Shown here: one piece after another, positions 31,070-34,092 of the stretch
Layout of the letters: each line of letters opens with the position of its first letter
How positions within the stretch are numbered: the stretch's first letter is position 1
DNA from: Candidatus Cybelea sp.
Lineage (GTDB): Bacteria > Vulcanimicrobiota > Vulcanimicrobiia > Vulcanimicrobiales > Vulcanimicrobiaceae
Assembly (NCBI GenBank): GCA_036489315.1
Contig: DASXFZ010000059.1
Location: 1-64,000, forward strand
DNA: 64,000 nt
Direction of reading: 5' to 3'
Notes under the pieces: model-generated
Told to the model about the DNA's origin: nothing
Databases searched by the model: none
Seen by the model: the letters and a program-made list of their open reading frames with translations, nothing else
Translations under genes and position numbers: made by a program

Positions 31070-31445
31070 TGAGTACTCCGTTCACAAAGCGCCCCGAATC
31101 CTCGGTCGAGAACCGTTTCGCAAGCGCGACGGCTTCGTTGATCGCGACCGCCGCCGGCGTCTGCGGACGGCAGCGTATCTCAAAGGTCGCCATTTCCAGC
31201 AGCAGGCGATCGATGGTCGGCAGACGCTCGAGTGCCCACCCCTCCAAGAGAGGGCTGACGATGCGATCGGCCTCCTGCGCGTACTCGAGCGTTCCCAGCG
31301 TGAGCTCCTTGACGAAAGCGCGCTGCTCGCCGTCGGCCTCTTCCCCAACGACCTCGCGCAGCGCGTCGTGCGGCTCGCGATCGCCGATGACGACGCAATA
31401 GAGCGCCTTGAGCGCCTGTTCGCGGCCTTCGCGGCGCGACGTCAT
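31044..31445 (-). CDS. nusB: Transcription antitermination factor NusB
   Basis: A 133-aa all-helical protein of rRNA antitermination. The family patterns are REGREQALKALY at the start and RLPTIDRLLLEMATFEI followed by AINEAVALAKRFSTEDSGRF. It overlaps accC by ATGA. Confidence 0.92.
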   Translation of the reverse strand: MTSRREGREQALKALYCVVIGDREPHDALREVVGEEADGEQRAFVKELTLGTLEYAQEADRIVSPLLEGWALERLPTIDRLLLEMATFEIRCRPQTPAAVAINEAVALAKRFSTEDSGRFVNGVLSAVVNAKG

Positions 31446-32785
31446 CGCAGCGCGAGCTCGTTGGGAAGAAACTCGACGTCGTACCGGCCTTGGCGAAACT
31501 GCGGGGTGGCGAGAATCTCCAAACAGAGTCCGATCGTCGTCTGTACGCCTTCGACGAGCGTTTCGCGCAGCGCGCGCTCCATGCGCGCAATGGCGATTTC
31601 GCGGGTATCTCCGTACGCAATAATTTTGGCGATCATCGAATCGTAATACGGCGGAATCGTCGCCCCCGCATACATGTGCGTGTCGACGCGAATTCCCGGC
31701 CCCCCTGGAAAGACCAGCTTGGTCACGGTACCCGCAGCCGGGGCGAAATGGTTATTCGTGTCTTCGGCATTGATCCGGCATTCGATCGCGTGCCCGCGGG
31801 CGACGAGGTCGCCTTGCGTGTAGCCGAGCGGTTCGCCCGCCGCGATTCGAATCTGCTCCTTGACGAGATCGATGTTGTAGACCATCTCGGTCACCGGGTG
31901 CTCGACCTGAATGCGCGTATTCATCTCCATGAAGTACACGTCGTCACCCGCCGCCAGAAATTCAAGAGTACCCGCGTTGGTGTAACCGACGGAGCGGCAA
32001 GCGCGCAACGCCATCTCGTGCAGTGAGTTTCGCACCGTCTCGGGCACGTGCGGTGCCGGGGTTTCTTCGATGATCTTCTGATGGGCCGGCTTCTGCACCG
32101 AGCAGTCCCGCTCGCCGAGGTGAACGAGGTTGCCGAATTCGTCCCCCAAGACTTGGACTTCGATGTGGCGCGGGGAGCGGATCAGCTTTTCGATATAGAC
32201 CCGTCCGTCTTTGAAGCTCGCTTCGGCCTCCGCCGTCGCGCCCGCGTAGGCGCGGGGCAGCTCGCCGGGATCGGAGACGACCCGCATCCCTCTGCCGCCA
32301 CCGCCCGCCGTCGCCTTGAGGAGGATGGGATAGCCGATCGATTCGGCCGCTGCGTAGGCGTCTTCGAGTGAAGCGAGCACGTCGGTTCCCGGTGTCGTCG
32401 CTACGCCGGCGTCGCGCAGCACCCGCTTCGCGGTCGCTTTGTCGCCCATCAGGGAGATCACCCGCGGCTTCGGTCCGATGAACTCGAGACCGTGATCGGC
32501 GCAAATCTCGGCGAAGCGCGCGTTCTCGGCAAGAAAACCATACCCTGGGTGGATCGCGTCGCAGCGGGTGATCAGCGCGGTTGAAATGATGTTGGGAATG
32601 TTGAGATAGGAACGCCCCGCGGGACCCGGGCCAACGCAGAACGCCTCGTCCGCTTGCCGGACGTGCATCGATTCGCGGTCAGCTTCGGAAAAGATCGCGA
32701 CGGTCGAAACACCGAGTTCCTGACACGCGCGATTGATTCGTAGCGCGATCTCGCCGCGATTTGCAATCAGTACCTTACGAAAAAT
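31442..32785 (-). CDS. accC: Biotin carboxylase subunit of acetyl-CoA carboxylase, apparent ATT start
   Basis: A 447-aa enzyme carboxylating biotin on the carrier protein for fatty-acid synthesis. The ATP-grasp motifs are KATAGGGGRGMR, HIEVQVLGDEFGN, EMNTRIQVEHPVTE and the catalytic HPGYGFLAEN. The first ATG in frame (32668) would remove 39 residues, but those codons read FRKVLIANRGEIALRI, the invariant N-terminus of the family. The only codon in the start position is ATT (32783-32785), with AAGGA seven bases upstream. So the start is either a true ATT or an ATG hit by a sequence error. It overlaps nusB by ATGA. Confidence 0.93.
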   Translation of the reverse strand: MFRKVLIANRGEIALRINRACQELGVSTVAIFSEADRESMHVRQADEAFCVGPGPAGRSYLNIPNIISTALITRCDAIHPGYGFLAENARFAEICADHGLEFIGPKPRVISLMGDKATAKRVLRDAGVATTPGTDVLASLEDAYAAAESIGYPILLKATAGGGGRGMRVVSDPGELPRAYAGATAEAEASFKDGRVYIEKLIRSPRHIEVQVLGDEFGNLVHLGERDCSVQKPAHQKIIEETPAPHVPETVRNSLHEMALRACRSVGYTNAGTLEFLAAGDDVYFMEMNTRIQVEHPVTEMVYNIDLVKEQIRIAAGEPLGYTQGDLVARGHAIECRINAEDTNNHFAPAAGTVTKLVFPGGPGIRVDTHMYAGATIPPYYDSMIAKIIAYGDTREIAIARMERALRETLVEGVQTTIGLCLEILATPQFRQGRYDVEFLPNELALR

Positions 32786-32792
32786 GACGGGA

Positions 32793-32800
32793 TCCTTCTC
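32793..32800 (-). promoter_or_regulatory. Ribosome binding site placing the ATT start of accC
   Basis: GAGAAGGA on the minus strand, 7 bases before ATT 32785 and just after the stop of the folK fusion. Its position fits initiation at the ATT and not at the downstream ATG. Confidence 0.6.
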
Positions 32801-32806
32801 GCCCCT

Positions 32807-33730
32807 TTAGCCTCGGGCGATGGAAAAGAGTGGCTGTCCATATTCGACGGGCGCGTCGTCGGCGGCTGCAATCAAAACCAGACGCCCCGAACCCATGCTG
32901 TGAATGGGCGTTCGAATTCCGAGCGCCTCAATATAACCCAGCTCTCGATCGCCGTCGAGCTGATCGCCCTCCGCCGGGGCGGGACGTCCCAAATGAAAGA
33001 TTCCGACAAGGTCCGCCTTGATCGTATCGACGCGCAGCGGCGGCGCCTCGGAGGAATGACCGTCGGCCGAGCCGCGACGCGCGCTCCGGCGCGGCGCGGT
33101 AAGTTCGATCTCTTCAACGCCCCGCTGGACACGCAGCCGGACGGCATCCCCTTCGCTCAAGAACGCCGCCAGCGCGCGAACTCGATCGCTGACGCTTGCG
33201 GCGTCTGTGCTCGACATCAGGCTATCGCTTTCACGCGGCACCGCGCCGGACCTGGAAAGGCCGCGTTCCCCTAGGCGTGTTACGCCTGCCAGCTCGCTCG
33301 AATCGAGCGCATCGCGCATCGCTGCGAAGCGATCGTCGAGCTCGGCAAGCGGAACGAGCACGAACGCCCGCTCGGCCAGGTGCTCGTGCGGCAGACGCAG
33401 ATTCGCCTCGGAAACCGTCAGGTCGTCGAAGAGTAGAAGGTCGAGATCGATCACGCGCGGACCCCATCGTTCGGCGGGCGCGCGTCCCAACCGCCGCTCG
33501 ATCCCGCGCAAGACGTCGAGCAGTTCGTGGGGGCCCGACCCGGTCTCGAGCGAGACGACCGCGTTGAAAAAGTCCGGTTGATCCCGACGCCCCCACGGTT
33601 TGGTTCGGTACAGCGCCGAGCTGCGCACGATCGTGCCGTTCTCGCGCAGCGCTTCGCGCGCGCGCTCGAGGTTAGCGGCGCGGTCGCCGAGATTGCTTCC
33701 GAGTCCGACGTACGCGAGGTGTGCCGTCAC
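32807..33730 (-). CDS. folK: FolK pyrophosphokinase fused to an AccB-like domain lacking the biotinyl lysine
   Basis: A 307-aa fusion. Residues about 4-140 are 6-hydroxymethyl-dihydropterin pyrophosphokinase, with VGLGSNLGDR, the RTKPWG loop and RVIDLDLLLFDD. After a linker, residues about 180-307 follow full-length AccB: an N-terminal helix-strand part (DRVRALAAFLSEGDAVRL), a linker, and the biotinyl fold from IKADLVGIFHLG to PVEYGQPLFSI. Where AccB has EAMKM or EAMKL, this protein has IEALGIRTP, so the biotin-accepting Lys is Gly. GTG 33730 overlaps folB as GTGA. An internal ATG at 33217 could make the carrier domain separately, but has no ribosome site. accC follows 21 bases later. Confidence 0.85.
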   Translation of the reverse strand: MTAHLAYVGLGSNLGDRAANLERAREALRENGTIVRSSALYRTKPWGRRDQPDFFNAVVSLETGSGPHELLDVLRGIERRLGRAPAERWGPRVIDLDLLLFDDLTVSEANLRLPHEHLAERAFVLVPLAELDDRFAAMRDALDSSELAGVTRLGERGLSRSGAVPRESDSLMSSTDAASVSDRVRALAAFLSEGDAVRLRVQRGVEEIELTAPRRSARRGSADGHSSEAPPLRVDTIKADLVGIFHLGRPAPAEGDQLDGDRELGYIEALGIRTPIHSMGSGRLVLIAAADDAPVEYGQPLFSIARG

Positions 33731-34092
33731 GGCCGATCGCAATGCGGATTGCCGCGCTCAAGCGTAACCGACGGCGTCGCTCCATCGAGAATGGCGGGCT
33801 TCGAGATCGTGAGCGTCGCGCGCGCGATGCGGGAATCCTCGAAGACGGTCTCGAGAACCTCGCCCGCGAGGCGCTCGAGCAAAGCAAAAGAGGTGCGTTC
33901 GACCACTCCGCTGATACGGCGGCACAGCGCCGCGTAGTCGACCGTCTCGTGGAGGTCGTCGCGGGCCTCGGCGCCGCGCAAGTCGACCTCCACGCTCAAC
34001 TCCAGCTCGAAGGGTTGGGCGCGGTCGCGTTCGCCGGGCAGCCATCCATGGCGTCCGAGCGCGCGCACGCCGCGCAGTGTTATTCGATCCAC
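33727..34092 (-). CDS. folB: Dihydroneopterin aldolase
   Basis: A 121-aa folate enzyme. The opening DRITLRGVRALGRHGWLPGER and the DDLHETVDYAALCRRI segment match FolB. GTG 34092 overlaps the folP end by 13 bases. Its active-site Lys is probably in TLTISKPAIL. Confidence 0.88.
   Translation of the reverse strand: MDRITLRGVRALGRHGWLPGERDRAQPFELELSVEVDLRGAEARDDLHETVDYAALCRRISGVVERTSFALLERLAGEVLETVFEDSRIARATLTISKPAILDGATPSVTLERGNPHCDRP

Follow-up and report, generated by a model that had tools for sequence, protein, structure and literature searches.

The window analysed here, a stretch of 64,000 nucleotides from Candidatus Cybelea sp. (contig DASXFZ010000059.1), carries on its minus strand, in this order, folP, a folB-like gene, folK, an AccB-like gene, accC, nusB and a penicillin-binding protein gene; names other than folK and accC were read from the translations. 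FolK and a lysine-less AccB-like domain share one open frame of 311 aa (32807..33742, minus strand, TTG start as listed). A reading made earlier from the sequence alone had described an uninterrupted frame running from FolK into a complete AccB layout, N-terminal part included, and both domains were indeed matched within 33742-32807. The end given there, 32807, was correct, while its start, 33730, was not, as the ORF begins at 33742. The FolK/HPPK domain covers aa 10-136 (33335..33715, minus strand), passing the TIGR01498 equivalog cut-off (142.4 vs 54.1 bits) and matching Pfam HPPK with E 2.5e-39. The AccB-like protein of 136 aa, called AccBL in this work, corresponds to aa 176-311 of the frame (32807..33217, minus strand, stop codon included) and comprises an N-terminal part, a linker and a biotinyl-like core. 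A GGA codon (Gly; 32918..32920, minus strand) occupies the biotinyl-lysine position within the motif EALGIRTP, so that the absence of a Lys codon from the biotinylation site was read correctly from the start. Codon 176 of the frame is an in-frame ATG (33215..33217, minus strand) and a probable independent start for AccBL; a Met is found near this place in nearly all fused genomes and in unfused ones as well. The stretch upstream of it, CGCGTGAAAGCGATAGCCTG (33218..33237, minus strand), has a GCGAAAGC-like motif in many relatives. The accC gene, encoding biotin carboxylase (31442..32785, minus strand), is the sole stand-alone copy found in the genome. Its start codon was read as ATT (32783-32785, minus strand) and is preceded by the Shine-Dalgarno-like GAGAAGGA (32793..32800, minus strand).

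A divergent AccB beside the only stand-alone accC

On its own, the AccB-like part stays below the thresholds of the curated models (TIGR00531, 20.9 bits vs a cut-off of 115.2; Biotin_lipoyl, 16 bits vs 22). A phmmer search of the single domain against PDB gave just one unrelated weak match, AccB being reached by the family profile only, and AlphaFold on the single domain with no alignment returned a pLDDT of 37. A profile built from 27 accC-linked relatives aligned, through its positions 11-139, with Escherichia coli AccB (4hr7_B; E 1.4e-23), and so the N-terminal part and the core of AccB are both present. HHalign of AccBL against the AccBs of the same genomes gave 98.4% probability and E 6.8e-15 over 132 columns, at 23% identity. 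Judged by these profiles, AccBL is a divergent AccB that retains the N-terminal part plus the core.

A functional carrier has its biotinyl-lysine in E-A-M-K-M/L, where AccBL has Gly. The sequence-only reading had reasoned that a genuine, biotinylatable AccB must then be encoded elsewhere, and the genome search located one: a 147-aa AccB, containing VLEAMKLFNEI, that lies on a different contig and is flanked by histidyl-tRNA-synthetase-like and sedoheptulose-phosphate-isomerase-like genes (named from translations). The cell thus has what characterizes a BADC-like arrangement, a BCCP homologue without the biotinylation motif together with a genuine BCCP. An accA gene and one biotin ligase were also found. 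Stand-alone AccC occurs once, beside the lysine-less protein, the remaining two Biotin_carb_C matches being frames of 559 and 754 aa; since it is single, this AccC presumably also serves the biotinylated AccB. The canonical-AccB query was matched in 60/60 relatives, but for G004, G018 and G039, three genomes that are fragmented or less complete, the best match was weak and non-canonical. A third AccB type (EVMKL) adjoins or overlaps a second, more distant AccC at loci L148, L174, L175 and L176 (G022, G023 and G040).

Distribution and evolution of the linked copies

AccBL was matched at E <= 1e-3 in 55 of the 60 relatives, and it is present at greater distance in G058 and G059, which are not among the 55. 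Three assemblies of the same family (G008, G011 and G019) gave no AccBL match, and none of their accC matches exceeds 52% identity, which suggests that these assemblies lack the stand-alone accC locus too. A contig scan with the whole fusion listed matches to the FolK part only. In the linked copies inspected in the phylum, which may be Eremiobacterota (WPS-2), accC lies directly downstream, with a gap of -13 to +45 nt.

The residue in the lysine column depends on the family. Gly is kept in all 38 linked copies of f1 and f2, which belong to the same order, while Asn occurs in f5-f8. The sequence-only reading had held that Lys at this site in close relatives would speak against it; the close relatives all have Gly, and Lys appears only in the more distant families f3 (8 Lys and 6 Arg, n=14) and f4 (1 copy). 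Twenty further linked copies, mostly from deeper families, have Gly (12), Asn (4), Arg (2) or Ser (2). All adjoin accC, and the unlinked copies read beside them retain EAMK. Summed from the separate tallies with repeats left out, the 77 linked copies of the phylum have Gly in 50, Lys in 9, Arg in 8, Asn in 8 and Ser in 2. Canonical AccB has Lys in 55/55 tallied. A frameshift or assembly error between the two halves of the frame, named earlier as something that would refute the reading, is contradicted by recurrence of the same frame in many congeners. With Gly in 38/38 copies of f1 and f2 and a FolK join that recurs in-frame, neither chance nor an assembly fault accounts for the locus.

A second phylum has the same pairing of linked and unlinked copies. 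Nearly all of 101 Armatimonadota genomes have two or more AccB matches. Among 50 linked copies inspected there, the lysine column holds Lys in 21, Gly in 14, Arg in 9 and Thr, Asn or Asp in 2 each, and a same-strand accC lies within about 630 nt in 42/50; the unlinked copies have Lys in 21/21 inspected (EAMK or ESMK). In Armatimonadota the linked accB copy is often separated from accC by a small pilin-like frame with an N-terminal hydrophobic stretch and a Cys-containing NNL.QLR-like pattern (L211, L213, L215 and others). Elsewhere the best AccB matches keep Lys, in 28 of 29 readable cases in Planctomycetota and in 30/30 sampled in Bacillota. One planctomycete locus (L305, G189) has a best AccB match reading EAMSVPNEI, with Ser at the lysine position.

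Within the phylum, a single branch parts the linked from the canonical copies (support 96/89), and one branch again splits them when Armatimonadota are included (SH-aLRT 92, tree computed without the lysine column). Placing the Lys/non-Lys label on the tree requires at least 15 changes, whose order and direction are unsure because support is low at many deep nodes and the tree has several long branches. In close pairs, dN/dS was 0.06-0.31 for the AccBL domain and 0.04-0.26 for its core, values comparable to those of canonical AccB (0.16-0.38) and higher than those of AccC (0.04-0.08) in the same genomes. By these ratios AccBL is under purifying selection.

Proposed role of AccBL and alternatives

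We propose that AccBL is a conserved, non-biotinylated AccB paralog encoded together with AccC. It would most likely bind AccC, biotinylated AccB or both and, as a subunit that carries no biotin, would help to assemble or adjust the biotin-carboxylase subcomplex in the manner of plant BADC proteins, acting as assembly factor or as brake; the in-frame FolK extension would be a lineage-specific addition, and the internal ATG probably also gives free AccBL. We assign a probability of about two in three to AccBL being such a BADC-like subunit of AccC. Binding to AccC or AccB, a structural or regulatory role and the lack of biotin on AccBL itself are what we infer from the comparisons above. The sequence-only reading had already put forward a possible BADC-like subunit beside accC that could be linked to folate synthesis: its non-carrier AccB paralog is supported, with the lysine lost and an EAMK AccB elsewhere, but the folate link in the form given there is not.

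Four residues of the hairpin tip (E, L, G and R) do not vary among 38 copies, and the tip ranks with the best conserved regions of AccBL, conservation being 0.86 there vs 0.56 domain-wide. Such constraint on a former biotin tip suggests a docking role. The same anatomy would serve a competitive brake, in which AccBL takes the places of AccB on AccC and lowers carboxylase activity, an effect of opposite sign to assembly; the conserved Lys-less tip could dock at the biotinyl-lysine site, and plant BADC has been interpreted as a BCCP competitor (PMC7712654). However, the plant literature is divided (PMC11926652), and AccBL is found in nearly every genome with stand-alone accC, a pattern no less compatible with a core subunit than with a brake. 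We regard a brake as unlikely, although it is the most probable of the alternatives.

Some members may still be carriers, since Lys is present in 9/77 linked copies of the phylum and in 21/50 of Armatimonadota. The Lys forms of f3 (8/14), f4 and Armatimonadota would then be biotinylated and would function in another state or with another partner. This could not apply to Gly, Asn, Ser, Thr and Asp forms such as that of the window, and Lys and Arg interchange inside a single genus (Lys in G045, Arg in G050). As an account of the system it seems quite improbable.

The fusion itself might be the functional unit, tethering folate synthesis to acetyl-CoA carboxylase. A search for the same fusion in relatives, as proposed earlier, found that almost every congener with both genes in view has the in-frame join. 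Within the window genus the FolK frame is open into AccBL in every locus showing both genes except L014, and it stays in register despite linker lengths that vary by whole codons. FolK-AccBL frames are likewise open and in register in G029 and G024. In most other genera, however, a stop lies between folK and AccBL, the two are in different frames, or there is no folK nearby, and the internal ATG with its upstream motif is retained in the fused genomes. The start codon heading AccBL and the GCGAAAGC-like motif are common to fused and some unfused genomes, and from this conserved ATG AccBL can probably be made alone. A tether between folate and fatty-acid synthesis, also suggested by the sequence-only reading, is unsupported by these data and appears very doubtful. 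We read the fusion as real yet local and secondary, occurring in a few genera and also permitting free AccBL. At locus L014 (G004) the FolK frame ends three codons past the internal ATG, and AccBL would need ATT or another start; this genome is incomplete (68%) and the stop may be an error.

Finally, that AccBL is a former accB in decay, superseded by another copy elsewhere, had been offered earlier as an alternative. This could draw on the many changes of Lys state and on the thumb region shortened in some members, but it is contradicted by phylum-wide conservation, open frames, dN/dS well below 1, invariant tip residues and constant accC linkage, and we reject it as extremely improbable.

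The start of accC may bear on how the two proteins are produced. The aligned first accC codon is ATT, ATC or GTT in 21/34 f1 loci, and in about half of the non-standard loci ATG, GTG and TTG are missing between the preceding in-frame stop and the first codon of accC. Downstream of this codon the window has no standard start before codon 40, although many relatives have a possible TTG at codon 6. A standard start is found near the expected place in 30/33 canonical accB and 33/34 AccBL. The non-standard accC starts, seen in the window and at loci L009-L033, have a Shine-Dalgarno-like sequence upstream. The prevalence of ATT or ATC in the window genus hints at coupled translation, and accC translation may possibly be IF3-sensitive as well as coupled. 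The coupled sigR-rsrA pair of Streptomyces owes the ratio of its partners to a non-standard GTC start (PMC5472188), and by analogy a near-cognate start might play a similar ratio role for AccC and AccBL. Taken broadly, we lean towards the view that in two phyla a BADC-like subunit that is not a carrier has become part of acetyl-CoA carboxylase: a copy of accB, duplicated long ago, would have been fixed beside accC and its lysine lost repeatedly, with a near-cognate accC start tuning translation in one family, and the counterpart of the plant regulator would have arisen by convergence or have an older origin.

Comparison with known carboxylase systems

Acetyl-CoA carboxylase catalyzes the first committed step of fatty-acid synthesis. 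Compared with the AccB/BCCP of its heteromeric form (TIGR00531, 4hr7_B), AccBL has the N-terminal part and the biotinyl core in a full-length profile match, but lacks the biotinyl-lysine, has a thumb about 5 alignment columns shorter and scores far under the family cut-off. The N-terminal part of the frame is an ordinary FolK (HPPK), and it is the AccB-like extension that sets the window genus apart. The acetyl-CoA carboxylase of Chloroflexus (PMC11077971) is a different system, with a BCCP that is fused and biotinylated. The non-catalytic assembly subunits of bacterial acyl-CoA carboxylases cited in PMC11926652 resemble AccBL by description, as non-catalytic partners said to aid assembly. Bacterial BADC-like proteins or non-biotinylated AccB paralogs were not found in the open-access literature searched. 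In both phyla, an annotation of AccB beside AccC should be taken with caution, as the protein is often not a biotin carrier.

The closest likeness is to BADC1-3 of plant plastids, which are also BCCP homologues without the biotinylation motif and occur together with a heteromeric acetyl-CoA carboxylase and a genuine BCCP. Identity to BCCP is low in both cases, 22% between AccBL and its own AccB and 25-30% for plant BADC (PMC11926652). Unlike the plant proteins, AccBL is bacterial and encoded beside accC, and its Lys is replaced by Gly, Arg, Asn, Ser, Thr or Asp according to lineage. We liken AccBL to BADC in its probable working, by comparison with the published description, and do not file it as a BADC. 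Plant BADC proteins bind both BC and BCCP and have been interpreted in two ways, as glue for assembly or as inhibitors (PMC11926652, PMC7712654). A small bacterial system with the candidate subunit encoded beside accC would allow this glue-or-brake dispute to be tested by reconstitution.
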